From Martelella sp. NC20 (GTDB lineage Bacteria > Pseudomonadota > Alphaproteobacteria > Rhizobiales > Rhizobiaceae), in assembly GCF_013459645.1 (NCBI RefSeq), contig NZ_CP054863.1, forward strand, positions 186,001-250,000: a stretch of DNA of 64,000 nt, in the 5' to 3' direction. The position numbers were made by a program, and so were the translations under genes. Shown piece by piece: positions 15,340 to 28,388 of this stretch; position 1 is the stretch's first letter; every line of letters begins with the position of its first letter. The notes beneath the pieces were generated by a model. That model had not been told where the DNA came from, searched no databases, and saw only the letters and a list, made by a program, of their open reading frames with translations.

Positions 15340-15699
15340 ATGTCAGAACGAGTGTTCAAAACAGCGTGGTTCGCAAAAGCGGCAAAGAAGGCGCGGATAA
15401 CCGACAAGGCTCTGTCGAAGACAATCCACCAGGTTGCCCTTGGCCAAGCCGACGATCTTGGCGGCGGCGTCTTCAAGAAGCGGCTCAACGAAAACATGCA
15501 TCGGTCCATCGTTCTGGCAAAAGCCGGAGAATTCTGGGTGTTCGCCTATCTCTTCGCCAAGAAGGACCGGGCGAACATCGATGACGACGAGCTTGCGGCC
15601 TTCCGGAAGCTCGCGGAGCTTTACCGTCGCAAGACGATTGCCGACCTCGAGGCTGAACTTGGGATCGGCGCCCTGCTGGAGATAGACCATGGCGACTAA
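15340..15699 (+). CDS. RelE/HigB-type toxin of a type II toxin-antitoxin system
   Basis: A 119-residue basic protein of the RelE/HigB-like toxin group that carries an FAKKDRANI core. It begins FKTAWFAKAAKKARI, with VFKKRLNENMHRSIVLAK and the hydrophobic FWVFAYLFAKKDRAN (about residues 66-80), then ELYRRKT. Such toxins usually cleave mRNA on the ribosome. The gene precedes its antitoxin and overlaps it by 11 bp, as in HigBA-type modules. A palindrome lies just upstream. The toxin is full length with no visible damage. Confidence 0.85.
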   Translation: MSERVFKTAWFAKAAKKARITDKALSKTIHQVALGQADDLGGGVFKKRLNENMHRSIVLAKAGEFWVFAYLFAKKDRANIDDDELAAFRKLAELYRRKTIADLEAELGIGALLEIDHGD

Positions 15700-16012
15700 G
15701 CGCAGGTTCAAGAGCGATGCTTTCGAGGCGATCCACAGTGCAGTCGAAGGCATGGCAGCGGCCGGCACCATCGACAAGGAAACGATGCGGACCTTCGATG
15801 AAGACTGCCTTGTAATCCCGCAGGAACTGACGCCTGACGCGATCAAGGCTCTGCGCGAACACAATCACGTCAGCCAGCCGGTCTTTGCCCGTTACCTGAA
15901 CACAAGCCCGTCAACGGTGCAGAAATGGGAAACCGGCACCAAGCGGCCAAGCGGGCCGGCACTCAAGCTCCTGTCTCTGGTACAAAAGCATGGGCTGCAG
16001 ATGCTCGGCTGA
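15689..16012 (+). CDS. XRE-family antitoxin (HigA/NadS-like)
   Basis: A 107-residue DNA-binding antitoxin with a C-terminal XRE helix-turn-helix: ALREHNHVSQPVFARYL then NTSPSTVQKWETGTKRPSGPALKLL (about residues 53-96). The N-terminal half would bind and neutralise the toxin encoded upstream. It overlaps the toxin gene by 11 bp, so the two are translated together. It likely represses the operon by binding the ATATAGCAC palindrome ahead of the toxin gene. Confidence 0.87.
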   Translation: MATKRRFKSDAFEAIHSAVEGMAAAGTIDKETMRTFDEDCLVIPQELTPDAIKALREHNHVSQPVFARYLNTSPSTVQKWETGTKRPSGPALKLLSLVQKHGLQMLG

Positions 16013-16056: not shown

Positions 16057-16170
16057 ATGAACGCTGAGCATTGGTCCGATCCGGAAAACGACGTGATCGT
16101 CGCCGTCTACTTCGACATGCTGAAGGAGGAGCTGGCCCCTGTGCATTATTGGGACATAGATTCACGGTAG
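16057..16170 (+). pseudogene. 5' fragment of a gene cut by the Tn3-family transposon
   Basis: An ATG at 16057 starts a frame reading MNAEHWSDPENDVIVAVYF and DMLKEELA, then enters the left inverted repeat of the transposon at 16139 and stops at a TAG formed by the repeat. The opening W-S-D-x-E-N-D-x-I-V pattern resembles the N-terminus of a group of accessory-region proteins that I cannot name with certainty. The rest of the gene is not found after the right end of the transposon, which suggests deletion of the flank after insertion. Confidence 0.6.
16139..16170. repeat. Left terminal inverted repeat of the Tn3-family element
   Basis: Starts CTGTGCATTAT and ends TTCACGGTAG. It matches the reverse complement of 28165-28196 over 32 bp with one mismatch (position 12, T against C). 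It does not begin with the GGGG common in the family. Confidence 0.9.
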
Positions 16171-16289
16171 GAACCTGCTGGACGGTACCAACGCGGTCGG
16201 GCAACAAGCGACGCCATCCGGGACGTCCCTGAGGCAGGTCATTGCTTCTGAAACCAGACGCTGCAGGTGGCCGACGTCACCGCGACCTA

Positions 16290-17402
16290 TCATACCGGCA
16301 CGTCGCGACCGGAGCAGAATTTCGCGCATGCGGCGACAACTGCGGAAGCATCTTCACCAGCGCCCATCACGAAGGCTGAAGCACGATTTCGCTGCCACGG
16401 ACGTCCTAGATGAAAAAGGCCCGGTACGGGAGAAAGGCTGCCTTCTTGCAGAATGCTTCCGTTGGAACGGGTACTGCCTGGAATCTGGAGCCATGCGCTA
16501 TCGTCTCGATATCCGATGCACCAGATGACGGAATCGATCACCCGTTTCGATCCATCGGCAAAGAATGCGAGGCGGTCTTGTGAAGAGACTAAGCGTTTCG
16601 CGACGGCTACGCCCCTTCGTTCCAAGTCGTCAAGGCTCCGATCCCTGTCAGGAAAGGGGTCCGCGCGCCGCATCACGCGTCCTATCGTCGATTCGGGCCT
16701 TGCTCTCATCAAGCCCAATGTGTGCAGCCACCACCATGTACTCTGGCCCAGAATGCGCTCGGGAAACAGACGGCGGCTGCGTCCAGCCGCAAGCACCACT
16801 TCATGGGTCAAAGCCAGCTCGGCTGCGATGTCGCGTCCGCTTGCTCCATCTCCGACAATAAGGACCATGCCAAGCGGGAGATCACTGGGATTGTGATAAC
16901 TTTCCGGTGTTAGTTGCTTGACTGCGCTGTCGAAGCCGGCAGCAATCGTTGGGATTATCGGTTTCTGAAACGCACCCGTCGCGACGATCACTGCCTTCGC
17001 TACTATGTACCTGCCATCGTCGAGTTGCGCGGCGAACCGCTCATCGGCCCGGCGTTCGAGCCGAGCCACACCATTTCCGGAATGCACCGGTAGGTCGAAA
17101 TGGCTGGCGTAGGTTTCGAGATAATTCGCAAACTCGTCTCGCGTTGGATAGCCTTCTGGGTCCCCATCGAGCGCAAGACCAGGCAGCGAACTAAATGCGC
17201 GCGGAGTGAACAGGGTCAGGGAATCGTAGCGATGGCGCCAACTGTCGCCGACGCGGGCATGGCGATCGACGATTTGGAATGAAAGCTCTGGTCGGGCAAG
17301 ATAATAGCCGGCTGCGAGTCCCGCTTGACCCGCGCCGATCACTAGAACGTCTATTTCCTCCGAACCATGGCTCACGGATAGCTGGCGAGGGCTTCTGTTC
17401 AT
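16290..17402 (-). CDS. Flavin-containing monooxygenase-like NAD(P)/FAD oxidoreductase
   Basis: A 370-residue cytoplasmic flavoprotein. The FAD fingerprint GAGQAGLAAGYYLA is near residues 22-35 and the NAD(P)H fingerprint GDGASGRDIAAEL near residue 180. GDSWRHRYDSLTLFTPR is typical of the CzcO/FMO-like group found near metal-efflux genes. The ATG at 17402 overlaps the lspA stop by 4 bp (ATGA), so it is coupled to lspA at the end of the metal operon. An upstream extension in the same frame lacks sense. The substrate is unknown; a role in redox or metalloid chemistry is only suggested by context. Confidence 0.8.
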   Translation of the reverse strand: MNRSPRQLSVSHGSEEIDVLVIGAGQAGLAAGYYLARPELSFQIVDRHARVGDSWRHRYDSLTLFTPRAFSSLPGLALDGDPEGYPTRDEFANYLETYASHFDLPVHSGNGVARLERRADERFAAQLDDGRYIVAKAVIVATGAFQKPIIPTIAAGFDSAVKQLTPESYHNPSDLPLGMVLIVGDGASGRDIAAELALTHEVVLAAGRSRRLFPERILGQSTWWWLHTLGLMRARPESTIGRVMRRADPFPDRDRSLDDLERRGVAVAKRLVSSQDRLAFFADGSKRVIDSVIWCIGYRDDSAWLQIPGSTRSNGSILQEGSLSPVPGLFHLGRPWQRNRASAFVMGAGEDASAVVAACAKFCSGRDVPV

Positions 17403-17863
17403 GCAGCCTTTGCTTTGCCTTTTACCAGAATGCTCTCCATCAGCAAAAGCCCTACCCCACAGACAATCGCCACGTCGGCAAGATTGAAGGCGGGCCAATG
17501 ATAGCTGCCGATGTAAAAATCCAGGAAATCCGTCACGGCACCCTGCCGGAGCCGGTCGAGCAGATTGCCGAGCGCCCCCCCAACCACGAGCCCGAGGGCG
17601 GATGCCGTCAGGCGGCTGTCGCTTCGATGGATCCAGATAAGGAGGCCGGCGACTATAGCGAGCGGGAACGCCATCAGGAGCCAAACCGGCGCCTGGCCGA
17701 ACAATCCGAAGCTCACGCCGGTGTTAAAGCCGAGCACGAGATTAAAGAAGCCGGTGACGGGAATGACCTGAGGTGGATTCATAACATGGTCCATGACCCA
17801 CCACTTCGTCGCCTGATCAATGAAAAACCCGCCAAGGGCGAGTGGAAGGCCGAGCCTGAGCAT
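17399..17863 (-). CDS. lspA: Signal peptidase II (lipoprotein signal peptidase)
   Basis: A 154-residue inner-membrane aspartyl protease that cleaves lipoprotein signal peptides at the lipobox Cys. Four hydrophobic segments are present. The catalytic Asp regions are visible in GNLLDRLRQG and FNLADVAI, together with the NTGVSFGLF motif. The ATG at 17863 (MLRLGLPLALGG) is preferred over an upstream in-frame start since AAAGGACA lies ahead of it. Extra lspA copies are common in Pb/Cd resistance transposons next to a P1B ATPase, as here. It is the second-last gene of the cargo operon. Confidence 0.88.
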   Translation of the reverse strand: MLRLGLPLALGGFFIDQATKWWVMDHVMNPPQVIPVTGFFNLVLGFNTGVSFGLFGQAPVWLLMAFPLAIVAGLLIWIHRSDSRLTASALGLVVGGALGNLLDRLRQGAVTDFLDFYIGSYHWPAFNLADVAIVCGVGLLLMESILVKGKAKAA

Positions 17864-17888
17864 GTCCGAATGTCCTTTAAACTCCGGC

Positions 17889-18632
17889 TTAGCCGATCCG
17901 ACCGAGGGCCGGGAACGTCTGGAGCAGCCATATTGCAAAGCTAGAGAGATGGCCGGTGATCATGGCGATGCCCATCACCACCATCACCCCACCAGCGACG
18001 ATTTTGAGCACCCGGCCGGTGCGGCGCATCGACATCATCCGCGCCATGAACCCGCGCATGAATAAAGCCGCCAAGATGAAAGGGAGGCCAAGGCCCAGGG
18101 AATAGACGGCGAGCAGCGTCGTTCCGCTTGCAACCGTGGCGTTGGCAGCGGAGAGGGTCAGAATCGCACCTAGCACTGGTCCGATGCAGGGAGCCCAGCC
18201 GAACGCAAAAGCGAGACCCAGGAGATAAGCGGCCCCAGCGCTTCCGCTGCCCGGATTGGCATGGAACCGGGCTTCACGATTGAGCCAGGGCATTGGTACG
18301 AGGCCGGTCGTGAATAGGCCGAAGACGATAACGATCCCTCCGCCAATCAGGTTCGCTTCGAAAAGATACATGCGCAAGAGCCGGCTCAACACGGTGGCGC
18401 TGGCCCCAAGGATGACAAACACGGTCGTGAAGCCGAGCACGAAGCAGAGGCTGAGGCCGAGAGTTCGGCCCGCTGCCCTGAATTCTGTATCGGCCGCAAT
18501 TCCGTCCGGGCTAATCGTGCGGCCTGCAACGTAGGAAATATAGCCCGGCACCAGCGGCAGAACGCAGGGCGACAGGAAGGATATAACGCCAGCGGCGAAA
18601 GCCGTCGCCATTCCGATACTGGAGAACTCCAT
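17889..18632 (-). CDS. ccdA: Cytochrome c biogenesis protein CcdA (thiol-disulfide transporter)
   Basis: A 247-residue inner-membrane protein with six predicted helices. It carries the two reactive-Cys motifs of CcdA/DsbD membrane domains, SPCVLPLVPGY (near residue 21) and APCIGPVLG (near residue 148). It passes electrons from cytoplasmic thioredoxin to periplasmic thiol proteins. The start overlaps the SCO gene stop by one base. Together with the SCO, DsbB and DsbA-like genes of the same transposon it would keep periplasmic metal-binding thiols in the right redox state. Confidence 0.9.
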   Translation of the reverse strand: MEFSSIGMATAFAAGVISFLSPCVLPLVPGYISYVAGRTISPDGIAADTEFRAAGRTLGLSLCFVLGFTTVFVILGASATVLSRLLRMYLFEANLIGGGIVIVFGLFTTGLVPMPWLNREARFHANPGSGSAGAAYLLGLAFAFGWAPCIGPVLGAILTLSAANATVASGTTLLAVYSLGLGLPFILAALFMRGFMARMMSMRRTGRVLKIVAGGVMVVMGIAMITGHLSSFAIWLLQTFPALGRIG

Positions 18633-19252
18633 CAGCCAATCTCGCCCACTAGACGGCGGAGCTTCTGCAAGCGAATCTCACGCGGCTCGTGCATGTCGAG
18701 CGTGCCGACGAATTGGCTCTCGGCATCCATCATGTAGACGCCTGCGGTGTGATCCATCGTGTATTCGCCCCCCTCCAGAGGCACTTTTCGCGCGTAGGCC
18801 GCAAAGGCCTTCACCACGGCGTCCGTTTCCTGTCGATTTCCCCGCAATGCGAGGATGCGATCATCAAAGGCTGTCATGTATTGAGCCAGCAGCTCTTGGC
18901 TGTCTCGTTCGGGATCGACGGTGAAGAACAGTACGTTGAACTGGTCGGCCACCGGCCCGAGCTCGTTCATGAGATCGCTGAGTTCGTAGAGCGTCGTCGG
19001 ACACACATCGGGACAATGGGTGAAGCCGAAGAAGGCGAGATAAGGCTTTCCAGCAAGCGCGGCATTGTCGATCGTCCCGCCTTGATGCGATGTGAGCTGG
19101 AACGGGCCGCCGATAGCTGCGATGCCTGTCGAAGACGCGACCGCCGCATTTTGCTGCTGCCAAGGCTTGGACACTGACAAGCCGATGAAAAGCCCACCGA
19201 CAGCGGCGACGGCAACCCATGCAACAAGACGGAAAAGTTTGACGCCGCTCAT
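18632..19252 (-). CDS. SCO1/SenC-family copper/thiol protein
   Basis: A 206-residue protein anchored by an N-terminal helix (about residues 8-27), with a periplasmic thioredoxin fold. The copper-binding CPDVC in FTHCPDVCPTTL (about residues 78-82) and the distal His in DHTAGVYMM (about residue 166) are both present, so the Cu site looks complete. SCO proteins deliver copper to cytochrome oxidase or act as thiol oxidoreductases. It overlaps the PCuAC gene by 4 bp and ccdA by one base, in a tightly coupled operon. Confidence 0.9.
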   Translation of the reverse strand: MSGVKLFRLVAWVAVAAVGGLFIGLSVSKPWQQQNAAVASSTGIAAIGGPFQLTSHQGGTIDNAALAGKPYLAFFGFTHCPDVCPTTLYELSDLMNELGPVADQFNVLFFTVDPERDSQELLAQYMTAFDDRILALRGNRQETDAVVKAFAAYARKVPLEGGEYTMDHTAGVYMMDAESQFVGTLDMHEPREIRLQKLRRLVGEIG

Positions 19253-19752
19253 TGGACAGCCTCTCCGTGCCCGTCATGTTCGTTCGCAAATTCCGGACGA
19301 GCACCCATGTTCTGCACAGCGAACTCAACGTCGATGGTACCGGCCTGCTCGAACACCAGTGTTGCGGCAAACCGCTCCCCTTCCTTCAAAGGACGCGATG
19401 GCTTCAAAAACATGATGTGTATACCGCCAGGTTGAAGTTCGACCGTCTTGCCAGCCCCAATTTCGATGCCATTTTGCACCGGCCTCATGCTGGCAACCCC
19501 GTCGATCACGGTCGACTCGTGGATTTCCGCCCGTTCTGACAGAGGTGATGAGATCGAAACCAGACGGTCGGCCATACCGCCATCGTTCGTTAGCGTCAGA
19601 TAGCCGCCGGCTACCGGCGCGACCGGCGGAGTCGCGCGCGACCACGGATGATTGATGGTGATCGAACCGGCTTGGAAGTCGTGACCAACGGCAGGAGAGA
19701 TCAATACCGCAAGGGTAAGGAAGGCGGCGGATAGGGCTCGTGAACTAATCAT
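19249..19752 (-). CDS. Periplasmic copper chaperone PCu(A)C
   Basis: A 167-residue secreted protein with an N-terminal signal peptide (ALSAAFLTLAVLISPAVG). The copper-binding pattern is visible: His in EIHEST, Met ten residues later in ASMRPV, then HIMF 22 residues further on, close to the family consensus H-X10-M-X21-H-X-M. PCuAC proteins hand Cu(I) to SCO or the oxidase Cu-A site. The ATG at 19752 follows GGAGAGAAAG. It overlaps the CDF exporter gene by 8 bp and the SCO gene by 4 bp. Confidence 0.88.
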   Translation of the reverse strand: MISSRALSAAFLTLAVLISPAVGHDFQAGSITINHPWSRATPPVAPVAGGYLTLTNDGGMADRLVSISSPLSERAEIHESTVIDGVASMRPVQNGIEIGAGKTVELQPGGIHIMFLKPSRPLKEGERFAATLVFEQAGTIDVEFAVQNMGARPEFANEHDGHGEAVQ

Positions 19753-20362
19753 GTTGATTAACTTTCTCTCCAGCTTCCCCGGCCTTTTCAAGAATTTCCA
19801 AGCCGCTTCTGACAACGACAACAACCACGCCCAGGCCGATGATCAGATCCGGGTAGGGCGAATTGAAAAGGATTACGGCCAGACCCGAAAGCGCGATGGC
19901 TGAGTTCACGAGCATGTCGTTTGTCGTGAAAATCCATGAGGCTTGCAGATGCACGCCGCCTTCCCGATGAGAATTCAGGAACCACATGCAGATCATATTC
20001 GTAAGCGCGCTCGCGATTGCCACGGCAATCATGACCGGCCCTATCGGATCGGAGCCAGTGAAGAAGCGACGACCGACTTCAAATAGAAGAAGACCAGCGA
20101 AAACCATCAGAAGGATACCCGACAGCCGGGCAACTCGAACCTTCGCCGCCAAACCGCGACCTACGACGAAAAGGCTAATAGCGTAGACACCGGCATCGCC
20201 AAGATTATCGAGTGCAGAGCCCATCAATCCTGTTGACTGAGCCCACCACCCTAATCCCCCCACAATGGCTGCCTGGGCCGTATTGATCGCAAGCACCCAT
20301 GCGAGCGCCCATTGTTCGCTCTTCTCGGATGAAGTGGCACTGCCCTTGGACTGATTACTCAT
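19745..20362 (-). CDS. Cation diffusion facilitator (CzcD-like) metal exporter
   Basis: A 205-residue inner-membrane protein with about six helices. The helix-II metal-site type sequence is ALDNLGDAGVY (about residues 50-60) and the helix-V site ASWIFTTNDMLVNS (about residues 142-155), in line with Zn/Cd/Co exchange by CDF proteins. It is short because the cytoplasmic C-terminal domain of classical CDFs is absent. The gene starts 66 bp downstream of the P1B ATPase gene and is probably part of the same transcript. It ends overlapping the PCuAC gene. Confidence 0.85.
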   Translation of the reverse strand: MSNQSKGSATSSEKSEQWALAWVLAINTAQAAIVGGLGWWAQSTGLMGSALDNLGDAGVYAISLFVVGRGLAAKVRVARLSGILLMVFAGLLLFEVGRRFFTGSDPIGPVMIAVAIASALTNMICMWFLNSHREGGVHLQASWIFTTNDMLVNSAIALSGLAVILFNSPYPDLIIGLGVVVVVVRSGLEILEKAGEAGEKVNQHD

Positions 20363-20428
20363 AAATTACACCTCGGCTTTCTTGGCGAGAAGTGGAAGCC
20401 GCGACCTGCCTTCGCGCACTGCTTGGGC

Positions 20429-22561
20429 TCATTTGTCGCGGGTGCCGCGCCAGGTCAGCAGGCGCAGCGCATTGGCTGTAACGAGGACCGTAGCGCCCGT
20501 ATCGGCGAGAATCGCCATCCAGAGCGTGGTAATGCCGAATAGAGTCGTCACGAGGAAGACGGCCTTCAGACCAAGCGCTATGGCGATATTTTGCCAAATA
20601 TTGCCGAGTGTCGCCTGTGACAACCCGATGAGATCGGCAACACCCGTCACCCGGTTTCTGAGCAGCGCGGCATCTGCGGTCTCCAGAGCAACGTCGGTGC
20701 CTGCACCCATGGCAACGCCAACGGAAGCGGCTGCGAGCGCCGGCGCGTCATTGATACCGTCTCCCACCATGGCGATCGGGCCATTAGCTTTGAGGCGACC
20801 GATCTCGGCGAGCTTGGCGTCGGGCAACAATTCGGCGCTTGCCTCAAGGCCAAGATGGGCCGCAATGGCGTCGGCCGTGCGCTTGTTGTCGCCGGTCAGC
20901 ATCAGTGGCCGCACACCTCGATCTGTCAGCCGCTTCACACCTTCGATAGCGTCGTCGCGCGGTTCGTCGCGCAACGCGATCAATCCCTCGATGGTCTTGC
21001 CCTTTATAAGCACGACGACCGTCTTGCCCTGGCTCTCCAGTATGGTGATCGTCTCGGCAATGTTCTCTTCGAGGGCAGCCTGTTCGGCGGCATGACGGGG
21101 AGACCCGACCGAAGCGAAGCCGTCCTTCAACCGCGCTGTGACCGCTTTGCCGGGTGTGGCAACGCCGCCCCCGAAGGTGACGGGCAGTTCGAGCCCCCGC
21201 ACTTTTGCCGCCTCCACGATTGCAACCCCGAGAGGATGGCTGGTGCTGCGCTCGACGGCCGCTGCAATGGCAAGGACGGCGTTCTCGTCCCCATTGATCG
21301 GCACAATGTCCGTCACCTGGGGATGGCCACGCGTCAGCGTTCCTGTCTTGTCGAAGGCAACAGTTACGACCTTACCGAGTATTTCCAGTGCCGCGCCCCC
21401 CTTAATCAGCAATCCCTGACGCGCGCCGGCGGCAAGACCCGAGGCAATAGCCGCCGGCGTGGAAATCACGAGCGCGCAGGGGCAAGCAATCAGCAACGTC
21501 GCAAGACCCCGATATACCCATGTCATCCAGTCACCGCCGAAGGCGAGCGGCGGCACCACGACGATCAGAGCCGCGACGACCATAGCGCCAGGCGTATACC
21601 AGCGGCTGAAACGGTCGATCATACGCGCCGTCGGGGCCTTTGATTCCTGAGCTTCCTCGACCATGTGGATGATGCGGGCAATGGTATTGTCGGCCGCGAC
21701 ATGACTGATCGACACTCGCAACTCGCCATTTGCATTGATGCTGCCGGCATAGACGTTTGCGCCGGCTTCTTTAAGCACGGGCATGGATTCGCCTGTCACG
21801 GGCGCCTCATCGACCTCAGATGCACCATCAATCACCGTGCCGTCAGACGGCACACGGTCCCCAGGCCGAACAACGACGACATCACCAATAGCCAACTCTT
21901 CGGCAGCGACCTGCTCAATGACACCATCACGCTCGCGGAACGCGACCCGGGGCACGAGATCGATCAGCGCTTCAATGCCTGCCCGCGCACGGCCTGCCGC
22001 CACGGTTTCAAGCAGCTCGCCCACTGCGAACAGGAAGATCACGACAGCAGCTTCTTCGGCCTCGCCGATGGCGACCGCGCCGAGTGCCGCGACCGTCATC
22101 AACGTCTCGATGGTGAAGGGTGAGCCGGACATCGCACCGGCGACCGCCCGCCGCGCGAACGGGATAACGCTGATCAGGGCCGCACCTGAATAGAGCCATT
22201 GCTCCCAATCCGGCAGGATACGCGCAATGGCGAAGGCAAGCATGAACAGTGCGCCGGTCAGCAGTACAAGCCGACCCTTGCTGCCTTTCCACCACGCCTC
22301 TGTGATGCGCTTCCGAGGCGGCCCCCCCTTCGTCTCAGCCTGCTCGATCACTGGCGTGTACCCGAGCGCTCGGATCTTTTGCTCAATAGTGCCGAGGGCC
22401 GTCCGGTCTTCATCGAGTTGCAATGCTAGCGTCTCGTTGGCGTAGCTGACATTGATGTCGCTAACGCCCGGCAGGCGTTGCATCGCCGTCTCGATTTTCA
22501 ATGCGCACGAGGCGCAGTCCATGCCTTCTATACGCAGTCTGTAAGGGCTCGCTGCCGCCAT
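20429..22561 (-). CDS. cadA: Heavy-metal translocating P1B-type ATPase (CadA/ZntA type)
   Basis: A 710-residue Zn/Cd/Pb-exporting ATPase. An N-terminal metal-binding domain has GMDCASC (13-19). The transmembrane metal site is CPCALVIS, the phosphorylation site DKTGTLTRGHP, then SHPLG and the hinge GDGINDAPAL. All catalytic motifs are intact and the length is standard. It is the first gene of a minus-strand metal operon. Its promoter has a TTGACC -35 and a TATCTG -10 with a 19-bp spacer overlapping a MerR-type dyad (22593-22623). The adjacent CadR/PbrR-like MerR gene is the expected regulator. Pb, Cd or Zn is the likely substrate; the exact choice cannot be read. Confidence 0.93.
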   Translation of the reverse strand: MAAASPYRLRIEGMDCASCALKIETAMQRLPGVSDINVSYANETLALQLDEDRTALGTIEQKIRALGYTPVIEQAETKGGPPRKRITEAWWKGSKGRLVLLTGALFMLAFAIARILPDWEQWLYSGAALISVIPFARRAVAGAMSGSPFTIETLMTVAALGAVAIGEAEEAAVVIFLFAVGELLETVAAGRARAGIEALIDLVPRVAFRERDGVIEQVAAEELAIGDVVVVRPGDRVPSDGTVIDGASEVDEAPVTGESMPVLKEAGANVYAGSINANGELRVSISHVAADNTIARIIHMVEEAQESKAPTARMIDRFSRWYTPGAMVVAALIVVVPPLAFGGDWMTWVYRGLATLLIACPCALVISTPAAIASGLAAGARQGLLIKGGAALEILGKVVTVAFDKTGTLTRGHPQVTDIVPINGDENAVLAIAAAVERSTSHPLGVAIVEAAKVRGLELPVTFGGGVATPGKAVTARLKDGFASVGSPRHAAEQAALEENIAETITILESQGKTVVVLIKGKTIEGLIALRDEPRDDAIEGVKRLTDRGVRPLMLTGDNKRTADAIAAHLGLEASAELLPDAKLAEIGRLKANGPIAMVGDGINDAPALAAASVGVAMGAGTDVALETADAALLRNRVTGVADLIGLSQATLGNIWQNIAIALGLKAVFLVTTLFGITTLWMAILADTGATVLVTANALRLLTWRGTRDK

Positions 22562-22592
22562 GGTGTCACCTCGATGGTTTAATGTGACACCG

Positions 22593-22623
22593 CAGATAGA
22601 CCCTGTAGCAACTATAGGGTCAA
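22593..22623 (-). promoter_or_regulatory. MerR-type promoter/operator of the P1B ATPase operon
   Basis: On the minus strand TTGACC (22623-22618) and TATCTG (22598-22593) are separated by 19 bp. The spacer contains most of a dyad with arms GACCCT and AGGGTC (22599-22621). A 19-bp spacer is characteristic of MerR-activated promoters, where the regulator twists the DNA to align the hexamers. Confidence 0.8.
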
Positions 22624-22696
22624 GAGTGGACTTCGTTTATTTGATTTCGCGCTGCGATCCACGTGCAAATTCGCGGTACAACTTCATTAAGGAGCC

Positions 22697-22721
22697 TTGA
22701 CCCTGTAGTGGGTACAGGGTG
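22697..22721 (+). promoter_or_regulatory. MerR-type dyad upstream of dsbB
   Basis: TTGACC at 22697-22702 is followed by a dyad with arms ACCCTGTA and TACAGGGT (within 22700-22720). The layout matches the ATPase operon promoter, but the -10 (near 22722-22728, CAGAAAT) is weak. This probably places the plus-strand dsbB/dsbA-like operon under the same metal-responsive regulator. Confidence 0.65.
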
Positions 22722-22782
22722 CAGAAATAGTTGAATGCAAAGGTAAATGGAGCGAAGCGAAACGATGGCGAAAGGGAGTGCT

Positions 22783-23223
22783 ATGACCACCGGGGCGGGC
22801 ACGACTGCAAATACCTGGGCGTTCGTCTTCTCGGCATGGCTCATTGCGCTTGCCGCCTCGCTCAGCGCTCTCTTCATTGGTGAGGTCATGGGACAGACGC
22901 CGTGCAATCTGTGCTGGCATCAGCGCGCTTTCATGTTTCCGCTGGCGGTCATTCTGGCTGTCGCTAGCTTTCGAGGTGATGCCAGCGTTTCCCGGTACGG
23001 ACTTCCACTGGCTGCCCTAGGTGCCGCCATCGCTGCATTCCACTCCCTCCTTTATGCGAGGATCCTTCCAGCAGCCATCGAGCCTTGTACACAAGACGGC
23101 CCGTCATGTTCTGGCGTCGAGATGACGGTCCTTGGCATTTTGCCGCTCCCTTACCTATCGCTCGCCGCCTTTGGGAGCATCGCTCTTCTTCTCGTTCTCG
23201 CGCACCGGAGACGTTCAACATGA
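22783..23223 (+). CDS. dsbB: Disulfide bond formation protein DsbB family
   Basis: A 146-residue inner-membrane quinone-linked oxidase with four helices. The first Cys pair is in TPCNLCWHQR and the second in PCTQDGPSC, both required for re-oxidising a DsbA partner. The ATG at 22783 is chosen because AAAGGGAG sits at ideal spacing; an earlier in-frame ATG at 22747 lacks this. The stop overlaps the start of the DsbA-like gene by 4 bp. It follows a MerR-type dyad and is divergent from the P1B ATPase operon. Confidence 0.88.
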   Translation: MTTGAGTTANTWAFVFSAWLIALAASLSALFIGEVMGQTPCNLCWHQRAFMFPLAVILAVASFRGDASVSRYGLPLAALGAAIAAFHSLLYARILPAAIEPCTQDGPSCSGVEMTVLGILPLPYLSLAAFGSIALLLVLAHRRRST

Positions 23224-23879
23224 CCAGACGGTCCATCGTACTTCTCACTGGCCTTGTCGCACTGATTGTCTTTGCAGGCGGTGCCTTTATCTACGACCGG
23301 TACGGCGGCCTCTCGGCACAGCCCGTTGCACCGGCGCAAGGTGATGCGTTGGTCAGGGCGCATTCACCCGTAATCGGCCCAGCGGATGCGCCGGTGACGA
23401 TCGTGGAATTCTTTGATCCGTCCTGCGAGGCGTGCCGAGCTTTCTATCCAGCCGTTAAGCAGATCATGGCGAATTTCCCTGCCGAGACGCGCCTGGTCAT
23501 CCGATACGCGCCCTTCCATGACGGATCTGACGAAGCCGTCAGGATTCTGGAAACAGCCCGTCTTCAGGACAGATACGAACCGATACTGGAAGCCCTGCTG
23601 GCGCGACAGCCGGAATGGGCCGTGCATGGTGCACCCGATCTCGAGAAAGCCTGGGAAATCGTGGCGGCGGCTGGGTTGGATGTTGAGCAGGCACGGCGTG
23701 AGATGTCCTCGGCCGAGATTGACGCCGTTCTTGAGCAGGATATGGCCGATGTTCAGAGCAATAATGTGCGCCAGACACCGACCTTTTTCGTGAATGGCAG
23801 GCCGCTGGAATCCTTCGGACCGCAGCAACTCCACGACCTGGTGCGTGAAGAGGTGGAGAGCGCCAGAGCGGCGCACTAG
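23220..23879 (+). CDS. DsbA/DsbG-like thioredoxin-fold oxidoreductase
   Basis: A 219-residue protein with an N-terminal signal anchor (IVLLTGLVALIVFAGGAFIY) and a periplasmic DsbA-like thioredoxin domain. The active-site CEAC is in FFDPSCEACRAFYP (about residue 71) and the cis-Pro loop in RQTPTFFVNG. The start ATG overlaps the dsbB stop. It is the natural partner of the upstream DsbB, introducing disulfides into envelope proteins. Its place in a metal transposon suggests protection or repair of thiols under soft-metal stress, which is an inference. Confidence 0.9.
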   Translation: MTRRSIVLLTGLVALIVFAGGAFIYDRYGGLSAQPVAPAQGDALVRAHSPVIGPADAPVTIVEFFDPSCEACRAFYPAVKQIMANFPAETRLVIRYAPFHDGSDEAVRILETARLQDRYEPILEALLARQPEWAVHGAPDLEKAWEIVAAAGLDVEQARREMSSAEIDAVLEQDMADVQSNNVRQTPTFFVNGRPLESFGPQQLHDLVREEVESARAAH

Positions 23880-23920
23880 GCGAGCCATCGAGATCGACAA
23901 ACGTCCAAATAGAACCTACA

Positions 23921-23945
23921 TGACCCTGTATACGCTATAGGGTCA
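23921..23945 (+). promoter_or_regulatory. MerR-type dyad abutting the merR start codon
   Basis: TGACCCT and AGGGTCA arms flank an 11-bp centre and end only 4 bp before the ATG of the MerR-family gene. This copies the dyads at the ATPase and dsbB promoters. Because it lies so close to the start, it may act by roadblock autoregulation. The AGGG of its right arm is also well spaced to serve as ribosome-binding site. Confidence 0.7.
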
Positions 23946-23949
23946 TAAA

Positions 23950-24354
23950 ATGAACTCTTCAATTCTGACGATCGGTCATCTTGCAAGGCAAACCGGTACC
24001 AAGGTCGAAACGATCCGCTTTTACGAGAAGAACGGTCTACTGCCCGAGCCCTCGCGTACCGAAGGCAATTATCGGGCGTACGAGCCAGACCATCTGAACC
24101 GGCTGAGCTTTATCCGCCGGGCACGTGACCTGGGCTTCTCGCTCGACCAGATCAGAGCGCTTCTCACGCTATCCGACAATCGCGGACAATCCTGCGCAGC
24201 AGTTGATGCCATCGCTAGCGAACATCGTGCAGAGGTCGAAAAGAAGATCACTGATCTCATGGCGCTCAAGGCCGAACTCGACAGAATGATCGACCAGTGC
24301 GAGTGCGGCATCGTCGACGATTGCCGGATCATTGAAACCCTGTCGCCGAAATGA
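23950..24354 (+). CDS. MerR-family metal-responsive regulator (CadR/PbrR-like)
   Basis: A 134-residue regulator with the MerR winged helix-turn-helix (IGHLARQTGTKVETIRFYEK, about residues 7-26), a dimerisation coiled coil, and metal-ligand Cys residues: one in GQSCAAVD (about residue 79) and others in QCECGIVDDCRI (about 117-127). The Cys layout matches Cd/Pb sensors of the CadR/PbrR group more than Hg or Cu sensors. Three matching dyads in the cargo promoters (22.6, 22.7 and 23.9 kb) are its likely targets. No separate ribosome-binding site is visible beyond the AGGG of the operator. Confidence 0.88.
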   Translation: MNSSILTIGHLARQTGTKVETIRFYEKNGLLPEPSRTEGNYRAYEPDHLNRLSFIRRARDLGFSLDQIRALLTLSDNRGQSCAAVDAIASEHRAEVEKKITDLMALKAELDRMIDQCECGIVDDCRIIETLSPK

Positions 24355-24448
24355 TCGGAGGTCCATGCAGCTTTGCCGACGATCCATGTCTTGATCGACT
24401 GCAATTGGTAGGTCGTTCGACATCTTCCGCTTGGAAGGGTTGGCTGCT

Positions 24449-24469
24449 GAAAGCGGCCTTTCCGCTTTC
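24449..24469. terminator. Hairpin between merR and tnpR, possible terminator
   Basis: Perfect 8-bp arms GAAAGCGG and CCGCTTTC around a 5-base loop, located between the convergent MerR and resolvase genes. There is no T-run after it, so an intrinsic terminator is not certain. Confidence 0.4.
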
Positions 24470-24496
24470 CACCCCATGGAGGTCATCGGATCCAAG

Positions 24497-25096
24497 TCAT
24501 GCCAAGGCCTCATGGGCTTCCCGCTGACGATATTCGGCAACGATTCTTGAGACGGTTGGCTCGCTCACGTCATAGAGCCGCGCCATCTCGGCGCCGGACT
24601 TGCGCCCCGCAACAACGGATTCGGCGATCTCACGCCGTTTCTTATCGTCAAGTTTGCGCCGCCGACCACCGAGCCGCCCTTCCAACCGCGCCTGCGCTAG
24701 CCCTGCGCTAGTCCGCTCGCGGATCATGGCGCGCTCGAACTCGGCGAATGAGCCGACCATCTGCATCATCATGCGGCCTGCCGGTGTCGTCGTGTCGATC
24801 GCTTCGGTCAGCGACCGGAAGCCGGCCCCCGCCGCTTCGATCTTTTCCATCAAGTGCAGCAGGTCTTTCAGGCTTCGCGAAAGCCGGTCGAGCTTCCAGA
24901 CAACAACGACATCGCCATCCCGTAGCTGGCCGATCATCTCCTGGAGCCTCGGCCGGTCCCATCGCCCGCCGCTGGCGGATTCTTCGAAGACGCGTTTACA
25001 ACCCGCTGCCGTCAGCGCGCGCAACTGTGCTGCGTTCGACTGGTCGTCCCCCTTCGACACGCGAGCATAGCCGATCAAATAAGGTGCGGTGCTCAA
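24497..25096 (-). CDS. tnpR: Serine resolvase of the Tn3-family element
   Basis: A 199-residue small serine recombinase that resolves transposition cointegrates. The catalytic Ser is in GYARVSKGDDQ (about residue 14), with ALTAAGCKRVF, the KLDRLSRSLKDL segment and the ERTSAGLAQARLEGRLGGRRRKL hinge region following. A C-terminal DNA-binding helix-turn-helix (YDVSEPTVSRIVAEY) ends the protein. It is divergent from tnpA, and the 129-bp gap should contain res. The gene is intact. Confidence 0.93.
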   Translation of the reverse strand: MSTAPYLIGYARVSKGDDQSNAAQLRALTAAGCKRVFEESASGGRWDRPRLQEMIGQLRDGDVVVVWKLDRLSRSLKDLLHLMEKIEAAGAGFRSLTEAIDTTTPAGRMMMQMVGSFAEFERAMIRERTSAGLAQARLEGRLGGRRRKLDDKKRREIAESVVAGRKSGAEMARLYDVSEPTVSRIVAEYRQREAHEALA

Positions 25097-25225
25097 TTCG
25101 ATCCTTTCACAAACGGCCGTCTACGGAAGCAGGATGACCATGACCGCAAATCAAGGCTCAATGCCTTTCACAATCCTCTTGCAAAACTGTATCAAAAGGC
25201 AAGTGATTTTTGAAAGGGATAACCG
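25097..25225. other. Probable res site and divergent tnpR/tnpA promoters
   Basis: The 129-bp gap between the divergent resolvase and transposase genes is where Tn3-family res sites lie. It contains short repeated pieces, including CTTTCACAA twice (near 25108 and 25163) and a pair CTTGCAAAA / AAAGGCAAG in inverted order. Exact resolvase subsites were not delimited. Confidence 0.5.
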
Positions 25226-28189
25226 ATGCCAGCACGCATTTACATGACCGGCCCTCAGCGCGACGCTTTGTTGGCGCTGCCCGAAGACGAGACGACGGTC
25301 GTCCGCCATCACAGTCTGGACGTAAACGACCTAGCTGCCATCAACAGCGCCCGCACGCCTGAGACCCGGCTTGGCTATGCTTTGCAGCTTTGCTGTCTGC
25401 GTTATCCGGGGAGGCATCTCCGACGCGGCGAATTGCTGCCCGCTGTCATGCTCGACCATATCGCTGAGCAGATCGGGATCGATGCAGAAGTGATCGGCGG
25501 TTTCGCACGACGGACGCCCACACGCTACGATCAGCTTCTCGCGATCAAGGCGCGTTTCGGGTTCACCGACCTCACCAAGCCGATGCGCGCAACGCTTCGA
25601 GCGTGGCTGGAAGCCGAAGCTGTCGGCCTGACCAACGGACGCGTCTTGTTGGGCAACTTCCTCGACGAACTGCGCTTCCGTAAGATAGTCATTTCCGGAA
25701 TCACCGTGGTCGAGCGCATGGCCGCCGAAGCGATGCACGCGGCCGAAAACCGGATCATCGCCGACATCGACAATCGTCTCGATCCGGCCACCCATAGCCG
25801 ACTTGACGCGCTTATCGCCGAGAAAACGCACGATAGGCAAAGCCGATTTTCCTGGCTACGGGAACCCACCCCGCGCGTCGCCTCTGCCTCGCTCGTCGGT
25901 ATTCTTGACAAGATCGCACTGGTTCGCGGCATCAGGACGCCCGCCATCGATAGACGATACGAACCCCGAATGGAGCAATTTGCGCGCGAAGGGGTCCGCT
26001 ACACCGCGCAGGCATTCCAGCAGATGGGGTCGGCGCGGCGGCATGTTATTCTTGTGGCGACGCTGCGCGAGTTTGAGGCCACGCTGACTGACACAGCTAT
26101 CGGTATGTTCGACTCGCTCATCGGGCGAGCGCATCTGCGTGCCCGCAAACGCCTTGAACAGACGGTTGCCGCTTCTGCCGACCAGGGCCGCGACCGATTA
26201 ATCCGTGTCGCCGACGTGCTTGAGGCGGTCAGCAAAGCCGCACGCGCCGGCGGCGATATTGCAGCAGCGGTCGCAGCGGTCGCCTCGCTCGATACGATCG
26301 ATGCCGACGCTGCTCTTCTCCGGCGAACCACGAGGCCGGGACGAGATAATGCCATCAGTGAAATCGGGCCAGAATATCGGACGTTCAAGCGGGCGGGGCC
26401 GCGCTTCCTGAAAGCGTTCACGTTCGAGGGTCGCAAGGGTACCGCGCCGCTCCGTGCAGCGATGGCGATCCTGGCCGAACTCGATGGCGACTGGCGCACG
26501 GCGCTCCCTGATGGCTTGCCGCTCGGGCATATCGAGCGGCGATGGCAGCGCTATGTCGTCACGGACGACAAGATCGACCGAACCCATTGGGAGCTGGCGA
26601 CCTATTCCGCGTTGGCTGGAGCACTGGCGGCGGGCGACATCTGGGTGCCAACCTCCCGACTGCACCGCTCTCTGGAAACGCTGCTTTCACCGAGTACGGA
26701 TCCGGTCCCGGCACAGGTCTCCGATATTCCTGATCCTCATGTGTGGCTCGATGCCCGCGCGGCCGAACTGGATACTGCGCTGCTCAAGGTATCAGGGGGG
26801 CTGACCAGCGGCGATCCCGCGCTGTTTTCCGGTGACCGACTGCGGTTTCCGAAAGAGCCGAAAACCGATCTTGCCGAACGCGACGATGGCAGACAGTTCG
26901 TCCGGACCTGCTACAATCTCGTGCCGACGACGCGCATCACCGATGTTTTGTCTCAGGTCGAACGTTGGACCGGTTTCACCAGCCATTTCGGTCATGTCTC
27001 GACCGGGTTGCCGCCCAGCGATGAACGATCCTTTCTCGCAGCTATGATTGCGGAAGCGACGAACCTCGGCCTGTCACGGATGGCTGAGGTCTGCGGCGTG
27101 GCATCGCGGCGCACGCTCCTGCGCATGCAGACGTGGCACATGCGTGAAGAGACGTTTCGCGCCGCGCTCGGCTGTCTGACCGACGCCATACAGGCCGAAC
27201 CAATGGCGGCCTGGTTCGGTGAGGGCTGGCGCGCCTCTGCCGATGGGCAGGCTTATTATCTTGGTGGCGCCGGGGAGGCTGGCGGTCAGGTCAACGCGCA
27301 TTACGGCCGCGACCCGATCGTCAAAATCTACACCACCATCACCGACCGCTACGCACCGCTCCATCAAACCGTGATCGCGGGCACTGCCGGCGAAGCGATC
27401 CATGCCCTCGACGGCATTCTCGGCCACGAAAGCAACGCCAACCTTTCCGCGCTGCACGTCGATGGCGGCGGCGTCTCCGATATCGTGTTTGCGGTCATGG
27501 ACCTGCTCGGGCTTGATTTTGAGCCACGTATTCCGCGCCTCTCCGATCGCCGCCTCTATTCCTTCGAGCCGCCCAAGCGTTACGGACGCCTCGCGCCGCT
27601 GTTCGGGAACAGGCTCAACCGCGATCTGATCGTCAATCACTGGCCCGACATTCATCGCGTCATTAGGGCGATGCGCGACCGAACCATCACCCCATCGCTG
27701 ATCCTGAAAAAGCTCTCAGCCTACCGGCAACAAAACAGCCTTGCCGCTGCCCTTCGCGAGGTCGGCCGTATCGAGCGCACACTCTTCACATTGCGATGGT
27801 TCAAGGATCCGGCGCTTCGCCAGCTTGTCACGGGTGAACTCAATAAGGGCGAAGCGCGAAACAGTCTGGCGCGCGCGGTTGCGTTCCACCGGCTCGGCCG
27901 CTTCCGGGATCGCGGTATCGAAAATCAGCAAATGCGAGCGGCAGCACTCAATCTCGTCACCGCCGCAATCATCCTGTTCAACTGCCGCTATCTCGACCGC
28001 GCCGTGAGTGAACTTGGAAGTCGCGGAGTGAAAATTGATCCCGCTCTACTCTCGCAGCTTTCACCTTTGGGCTGGGACCGGATCAACCTCACCGGCGATT
28101 ATGTCTGGTCAGACGGCATTGAACTCGATGCCGACGGACTCATGCCCCTTCGAATCCCCGATAGCTACCGTGAATCTATGTCCCGATAA
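25226..28189 (+). CDS. tnpA: Tn3-family transposase
   Basis: A 987-residue replicative transposase of the Tn3 family: an N-terminal DUF4158-type DNA-binding region (PARIYMTGPQRDALLALP start) and a C-terminal DDE catalytic domain, with the ALHVDGGGVSDIVFAVMDLLGLDFEPRIPRL region and HRLGRFRDRGIENQQMRAAALNLV near the end, as in intact homologues. The length is full. The stop TAA lies within the right terminal repeat. It is preceded by GAAAGGG at good spacing. With tnpR and the repeats it should make the element transposition-competent. Confidence 0.94.
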   Translation: MPARIYMTGPQRDALLALPEDETTVVRHHSLDVNDLAAINSARTPETRLGYALQLCCLRYPGRHLRRGELLPAVMLDHIAEQIGIDAEVIGGFARRTPTRYDQLLAIKARFGFTDLTKPMRATLRAWLEAEAVGLTNGRVLLGNFLDELRFRKIVISGITVVERMAAEAMHAAENRIIADIDNRLDPATHSRLDALIAEKTHDRQSRFSWLREPTPRVASASLVGILDKIALVRGIRTPAIDRRYEPRMEQFAREGVRYTAQAFQQMGSARRHVILVATLREFEATLTDTAIGMFDSLIGRAHLRARKRLEQTVAASADQGRDRLIRVADVLEAVSKAARAGGDIAAAVAAVASLDTIDADAALLRRTTRPGRDNAISEIGPEYRTFKRAGPRFLKAFTFEGRKGTAPLRAAMAILAELDGDWRTALPDGLPLGHIERRWQRYVVTDDKIDRTHWELATYSALAGALAAGDIWVPTSRLHRSLETLLSPSTDPVPAQVSDIPDPHVWLDARAAELDTALLKVSGGLTSGDPALFSGDRLRFPKEPKTDLAERDDGRQFVRTCYNLVPTTRITDVLSQVERWTGFTSHFGHVSTGLPPSDERSFLAAMIAEATNLGLSRMAEVCGVASRRTLLRMQTWHMREETFRAALGCLTDAIQAEPMAAWFGEGWRASADGQAYYLGGAGEAGGQVNAHYGRDPIVKIYTTITDRYAPLHQTVIAGTAGEAIHALDGILGHESNANLSALHVDGGGVSDIVFAVMDLLGLDFEPRIPRLSDRRLYSFEPPKRYGRLAPLFGNRLNRDLIVNHWPDIHRVIRAMRDRTITPSLILKKLSAYRQQNSLAAALREVGRIERTLFTLRWFKDPALRQLVTGELNKGEARNSLARAVAFHRLGRFRDRGIENQQMRAAALNLVTAAIILFNCRYLDRAVSELGSRGVKIDPALLSQLSPLGWDRINLTGDYVWSDGIELDADGLMPLRIPDSYRESMSR

Positions 28190-28196
28190 TGCACAG
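28165..28196. repeat. Right terminal inverted repeat of the Tn3-family element
   Basis: Reverse complement begins CTGTGCATTATC and ends ATTCACGGTAG, matching the left repeat at 31 of 32 positions. The tnpA stop codon lies inside it. The 192 bp that follow, up to 28388, hold no recognised gene. Confidence 0.9.
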
Positions 28197-28388
28197 AGGC
28201 CGGTTTGGCTTTGACCGCAGTGTCAATCGGCTTGGCTCCGGGAACACGACATACGATCATTTTTTTCAACGTTAATACGCCGATCGGCGTCGAACGCTCA
28301 TGCCGAACTAAAGATTTTGCCGCAAAAATGCCGCATTTCGCAGTGTGCCCCTTGACCTCGCAGCCGGGTTTTCCCAAAAATCTGCGCC

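Follow-up and report, generated by a model that had tools for sequence, protein, structure and literature searches.

How does a mobile element for metal export come to carry genes for disulfide formation and copper delivery, and is this combination peculiar to the element? The question is raised by a stretch of 64,000 nucleotides of Martelella sp. NC20 (contig NZ_CP054863.1, positions 186,001 to 250,000; hereafter the window, from the first base of which all coordinates are counted), in which a Tn3-family transposon with the genes tnpR and tnpA carries ten further genes. These code for a P1B ATPase, a CDF-type transporter, the lipoprotein signal peptidase LspA, a MerR-family regulator, CcdA, SCO, PCuAC, DsbB, a DsbA-like protein and a flavin monooxygenase, as listed in an initial annotation of the sequence, and searches against Pfam and NCBIfam identified tnpA, tnpR and all ten cargo genes, some of them below the NCBIfam cut-offs. 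The annotation had also considered the combination non-standard. The cargo is indeed unusual, and no description of such a module was found in the open-licence literature of PMC, as judged by titles and the beginnings of abstracts among the matches listed, but it is not unique to the element, since diverged versions of it recur in other Alphaproteobacteria. We consider it fairly probable that the transposon spreads an older, CadR-linked module that couples the export of Zn, Cd and Pb to the upkeep of disulfides and copper sites in the envelope, and regard this module as a more interesting unit than the transposon itself.

The association of the sensor with redox genes predates the transposon and is also seen in distantly related bacteria. 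The search for the same genes and repeats in other genomes, suggested in the annotation, recovered near-identical copies of the element, and also the set of ten cargo genes at 63-97% identity in stretches with no match to tnpA or tnpR, namely in L028 (Telmatospirillum, 85-97%) and L034-L036 (63-93%; loci are referred to by L numbers), with a partial flavoprotein gene in L036. The idea that the cargo combination is confined to this element was thereby rejected. In a sample of the class, a relative of the window's DsbB (E<=1e-20) was present in 12 of 385 genomes, its own included. The 11 other loci represent 9 genera, three of them (L132, L133, L134) coming from a single genus, and their DsbB proteins are 48-60% identical to that of the window. 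At every one of them a DsbA gene follows the DsbB gene and a CadR-like MerR gene is located within 6 kb, and all three metal-binding cysteines of the regulator were present at 10 of the 11. Within the same distance we found genes for LspA at 9 loci, SCO at 9, PCuAC at 7, the CDF transporter at 4 and the ATPase at 3, the latter being situated further away in four more. In one genome, a copy of the transposon shares its contig with a second, diverged cluster (L141, G002 C3:56000-75900), which consists of MerR-ATPase-LspA-DsbB-DsbA plus SCO-PCuAC-SCO, with identities of 36-54%.

Broader samples, both searched at E<=1e-15, yielded DsbB relatives in 12 of 297 genomes of the order and 40 of 398 genomes of the phylum, again including its own. 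A MerR gene was found within 6 kb in 6 of the 11 other loci from the order and in 10 of the 41 other places from the phylum, including all three from its own class, while DsbA was found at all 63 DsbB loci of the three samples. Among 40 control stretches, which were selected from genomes with matches and not at random, only one (L259) contained a MerR match, and this stretch adjoins the L188 island. Other matches in the controls were scattered and single: two to SCO and one each to CcdA, the flavin monooxygenase, the ATPase, TnpR and DsbA, those of L259 included. For these counts, tblastn matches covering <30% of the query (<25% in another survey) were dropped, with an exception for TnpA in one survey.

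The annotation had placed metal-sensor dyads over both the export and the redox genes, and this was confirmed: a MerR-type dyad of 21 nt precedes each of the three units, the pump operon, dsbBA and merR. Dyad 1 (22600..22620, reverse strand) is part of a putative promoter for the ATPase operon (TTGACC-19 bp-TATCTG) and dyad 2 (22700..22720, forward strand) of one for dsbBA (TTGACC-19 bp-CAGAAA, a weak -10 box), with the spacers counted by eye. Dyad 3 (23923..23943, forward strand) ends 6 nt before the ATG of merR, too near for an ordinary activated promoter. Since the search pattern, ACCCTRTAN5TAYAGGGT, was derived from these three sites, it is the absence of further matches that is informative: there was no fourth match in the window even with 2 mismatches (0.00 in shuffled sequences) and, across the genome of 6.1 Mb, no exact match besides these three (reversed-pattern control, 0).

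The number of dyads follows the gene content of the cluster. All three, with at most one mismatch, are present in the four long clusters that are not part of the transposon (L028, L034, L035, L036), L041 has a dyad for the ATPase (one mismatch) and another for dsbB, the clusters without dsbBA (L029-L033, L037, L048, L092) have one each, and L024, with no match to dsbB, has two. The dyad before dsbB is retained in diverged copies. When columns were counted over the window, L028, L034 and L036, omitting L035 as near-identical to L034, 23 of 31 columns were invariant in dyad 2 and 28 of 30 in dyad 1; the counts were 26 of 70 for the segment separating the two, 32 of 56 for the downstream part and 25 of 34 for the one preceding dyad 1. 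By visual inspection, candidate MerR-type promoters were recognized in 7 of 8 diverged regions, leading into sco-dsbB-dsbA (L131, L136, L193), CDF-dsbB-dsbA (L128, L130) or the ATPase gene (L129, L135), which suggests that the redox genes of some clusters are first-line targets rather than passengers at the tail end.

These data bear on an alternative explanation, according to which the element is a resistance transposon for export only, with a MerR-ATPase-CDF-LspA core providing the resistance and the redox and copper genes carried as passengers. Seven genome loci and L092 indeed have a shorter cluster that lacks both dsbBA and the flavoprotein gene, which means that dsbBA is dispensable in some hosts, and pbr operons likewise pair an ATPase with a signal peptidase (PMC3431237). 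However, the shorter cluster still retains SCO, PCuAC and CcdA, dsbBA retains a dyad of its own, and at the class loci the CadR-like gene accompanied DsbB in 11 of 11 cases at DsbB identities of 48-60%. We regard the export-only explanation as unlikely.

Which metals might the module respond to? The regulator (23950..24354, forward strand) has CadR as its best match in PDB, and its residues C82, C117 and C125 align with the three metal-binding cysteines of CadR, including the one that marks the divalent class. Regulators of +2 ions contain a cysteine equivalent to C82, which is C79 in PbrR (PMC3431237). By sequence the protein thus belongs with the CadR-like sensors of divalent metals, and a response to Cd or Pb is predicted.

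The ATPase (20429..22561, reverse strand) contains the motifs GMDCASC, CPC, DKTGT and GDGIND, and its best match in PDB is ZntA (4umv), to which it aligns nearly end to end with 587 bits, as compared with 382 bits for the copper ATPase 3j09. P1B-2 ATPases, the class of ZntA, are characterized by CPC, a lysine in transmembrane segment 7 and an aspartate in segment 8. The window protein contains CPC, and the stretches with the lysine of segment 7 and with the aspartate, DTGATVLVTANALRLL, are identical to ZntA as read from the alignment. It also scored above the cut-off of the cadmium model TIGR01512 (519 of 313.5 bits). The second transporter (19745..20362, reverse strand) is a short CDF-type protein of 205 amino acids, above the cut-off for PF01545 and below that for TIGR01297 (56 of 82 bits), in which DNLGD was the sole pattern match for a metal site. 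The protein terminates shortly beyond the last of its predicted membrane segments.

The remaining genes of the pump operon are located downstream on the reverse strand. They encode PCuAC, a periplasmic copper chaperone (19249..19752; PF04314, H-X10-M-X22-H-X-M, PCuAC relatives in PDB), the copper/thiol protein SCO (18632..19252; PF02630, E 4e-48, CPDVC and DH), CcdA of the DsbD_TM type, a membrane carrier of thiol electrons (17889..18632; PF02683, SPC and APC cysteines), LspA, or signal peptidase II (17399..17863; PF01252, TIGR00077 above cut-off), and a flavin-dependent NAD(P) oxidoreductase or monooxygenase (16290..17402; PF13738, E 1.5e-25, two GxGxxG motifs). Neither SCO nor PCuAC had a match in NCBIfam, and the flavoprotein is ArsO-like but far below the cut-off of the ArsO model (184 of 425 bits). 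All seven genes of the operon are transcribed in one direction, and five of the six junctions are overlapping or 25 bp in size, that between the ATPase and CDF genes being 66 bp. On the forward strand, the BdbC-like disulfide generator DsbB (22783..23223; PF02600, CNLC and C102/C109, PRK03113 below cut-off with 90 of 124 bits) overlaps by 4 bp with the DsbA-like thioredoxin-fold oxidase (23220..23879; PF13462 and PF01323, CEAC and TP), whose relatives in PDB include BdbD.

The copper-delivery genes could alternatively be taken to serve the rescue of respiration, with SCO, PCuAC and CcdA induced by metal to restore the CuA site in cytochrome c oxidase and DsbBA assisting in the folding of c-type proteins. 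ScoI and PcuC act in CuA assembly, and the best solved relative of SCO is Blr1131, which we take to be Bradyrhizobium ScoI, with its role in that process. Yet no oxidase or cytochrome gene was identified among the ten cargo genes by Pfam and NCBIfam, and LspA is left unexplained, so that of the explanations considered we give this one the least credence.

Several observations weigh against the module that we favour, and part of them agree with the proposal that the system is primarily for copper or silver, with SCO, PCuAC and CcdA handling copper and the MerR protein responding to Cu(I). The regulator scored below both relevant NCBIfam cut-offs, and slightly higher with the CueR model (131.1 of 147.4 bits) than with CadR-PbrR, TIGR02047 (128.5 of 151.45 bits), for which reason we call it CadR-like and do not assign it to CadR. 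The ATPase was above the cut-off of the copper model TIGR01511 (403 of 397 bits) and below that of its best-fitting model, NF008262 (810.5 versus 1005 bits), and it is therefore labelled ZntA-like. SCO and PCuAC contain copper-ligand motifs, and DsbA has weak matches (E 2e-5) to chains in PDB whose names refer to copper or metal resistance. Set against this, C82 is the cysteine of the divalent class, the closest solved relatives of the regulator are CadR proteins, and the ATPase is nearer to ZntA than to CopA and scored higher with the cadmium model, which makes a copper system very unlikely.

The other unfavourable observations concern the gene content and the surveys. By eye, the CDF protein is devoid of the usual second metal site (HxxxD/DxxxD), the host encodes relatives of SCO, PCuAC and CcdA of its own (weaker matches), and dsbB is preceded by a -10 box that is both weak and variable. 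No MerR match was found within 6 kb at 5 of the 11 loci from the order and 31 of the 41 from the phylum; outside the Alphaproteobacteria it was in reach at 7 of 38 phylum loci, several of these stretches being cut by contig ends. The MerR protein of L126 in the class has no equivalent of C117, and that of L208 in the phylum none of C82. No promoter was matched in L133, and many diverged loci yielded nothing upstream of merR when palindromes were sought with stricter criteria. Near-identity among the seven loci without dsbBA, and between L034 and L035 in the control region, means that these sets represent few independent events.

If the favoured reading is correct, cytoplasmic Zn, Cd or Pb(II) would be sensed by the MerR-family protein acting on promoters with long spacers, and the protein would switch on the unit ATPase-CDF-PCuAC-SCO-CcdA-LspA-flavoprotein as well as dsbB-dsbA, the dyad of merR itself probably serving in feedback. 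The ATPase and the CDF protein would then move metal into the periplasm. Because the metal may attack thiols and copper sites there, the module would also supply extra capacity: DsbB and DsbA to form disulfides, CcdA to deliver reductant, PCuAC and SCO to deliver copper, and LspA to mature lipoproteins. The annotation had suggested that the cargo repairs or retunes thiols, copper sites and lipoproteins, which is plausible; metal induction, protection of the envelope, a benefit to the host and the substrate of each protein are likewise predictions. In Burkholderia cepacia, loss of DsbA-DsbB is reported to lower the minimum inhibitory concentrations of Cd and Zn (Hayashi 2000, as cited in the review PMC11253441), and we count this in favour of the module. 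More tentatively, and at somewhat less than even odds, the CadR-like divalent-metal regulons of Alphaproteobacteria may include a second arm that is conserved and consists of a dedicated DsbB-DsbA pair together with SCO, PCuAC and LspA. This arm would restore the function of disulfides, copper sites and lipoproteins in the envelope during metal export, and the transposon would have made the two-arm response mobile. Metal resistance is usually framed as a sensor and a pump; a conserved, mobile link between sensor and redox genes would mean that damage in the periplasm, where the pumps deliver the metal, is managed by the same switch. The Cd and Zn sensitivity of DsbA-DsbB mutants would then become testable in a system whose own Dsb pair seems to be under metal control.

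Known systems share parts of this arrangement. The pbr operon of Cupriavidus metallidurans pMOL30 (PbrR, PbrT, PbrA, PbrB, the signal peptidase PbrC and PbrD), as described in PMC3431237, likewise has a MerR-type sensor with the divalent-class cysteine, a promoter with a 19-bp spacer, a P1B ATPase and signal peptidase II. PbrT, PbrB and PbrD were not found among the ten cargo genes by Pfam and NCBIfam, in a search that did not extend to the intergenic gaps, whereas the module adds CDF, PCuAC, SCO, CcdA, DsbB, DsbA, the flavoprotein and three dyads. CadR-CadA divergons, according to the main text of PMC1526738, have a CadR-like regulator, a P-type ATPase and a palindrome in a 19-bp spacer in common with the module, but dsb and thioredoxin occur 0 times in that text. 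DsbA-like and DsbD-like proteins are also tied to metal and copper tolerance in Scs (suppressor of copper sensitivity). Both protein types are common to Scs and the module, which differs by its DsbB-type protein, CadR-like control and ZntA-like pump, and the matches of its DsbA to resistance-protein chains are the weak ones given above.

The vehicle of the module, a conventional member of the Tn3 family, carries a cargo that is unusual without being unique, and the annotation was correct in its assignment. TnpA (25226..28189, forward strand) is a DDE transposase of this family (NF033527, 886 bits with a cut-off of 500; PF01526) related to that of Tn4430, the solved reference, and TnpR (24497..25096, reverse strand) is a serine resolvase (PF00239, RVS and DRLSR motifs). 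The intervening segment (25097..25225) contains repeated CCTTTCACAA and inverted TTTTTGAAAGG and may represent a res region. Terminal inverted repeats in the Tn3 family are about 38 bp in size. In common with other members, the element has TnpA, TnpR, repeats of 37 bp and, in some copies, a 5-bp target duplication; it differs from them in cargo.

The annotation had delimited the element to 16139-28196 (12,058 bp) with repeats of 32 bp. The element is real, but these ends were rejected as 5 bp short on each side, since copies elsewhere extend that much further out. The transposon thus covers 16134-28201 (12,068 bp), and its repeats (16134..16170, forward; 28165..28201, reverse, overlapping the end of tnpA) are 37 bp in size and identical at 35 positions, the outermost bases GGCCY having been absent from the shorter repeat. 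The ends agree with those of plasmid copies, the matches of which end at 16126-16134 and 28201-28207 (H2-H7, with H6 and H7 cut at one end).

Counting equal flanks as one insertion site, there were seven distinct complete insertions with both repeats: the window together with L085 (NC18), L004 with L021, L005 with L087, and L025, L086, L088 and L089. Perfect duplications of 5 bp just outside GGCC were found in two of them (L086 TTTTT, L089 CATCA) and in two of three cargo-free relatives (L095 AGATT and L097 ATCCT, not L096). The remaining five insertions had none, the window copy with its flanks GAGCT and GGTTT included, and this is a further point to be set against the favoured reading. The sequence interrupted at the left flank of the window copy, an open reading frame by eye, is unbroken in three other Martelella genomes (G001, G004 at two places, and G006) and on contig 2 of its own genome, and the right flank is unrelated to its continuation; insertion was therefore likely followed by a rearrangement beside the window copy. 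Just outside the left end are genes for a RelE/ParE-type toxin and a helix-turn-helix antitoxin (15340-16012), and 92-95% copies of this stretch were found on another contig of the same genome and in other Martelella.

The near-identical transposon is common to several marine and soil Alphaproteobacteria. Among 88 plasmid records with a match, five had at least 80% of the query covered by a single place, and full-length matches of 99.9-100% were found in plasmids of Martelella NC18, Martelella AD-3 and three Roseibium strains; those in Nitratireductor rhodophyticola and Martelella mediterranea were partial. Whole or cut copies, several of them interrupted by contig ends, were also found in M. 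mediterranea 175.2, Oricola, Aquibium, Nitratireductor indicus, Thalassobaculum and metagenome-assembled genomes of Marivivens and Phyllobacteriaceae. Some copies are decaying: an IS6 element adjoins a truncated CcdA gene in L090, the right part is missing from near the end of dsbB in L091, SCO is split in L049, and PCuAC is split in L085, the NC18 stretch, which is one base longer than that of the window. Beside the diverged module in two genomes, genes for M23 peptidases, another envelope function, are located at L128:12265-13989 and L133:10793-12004.

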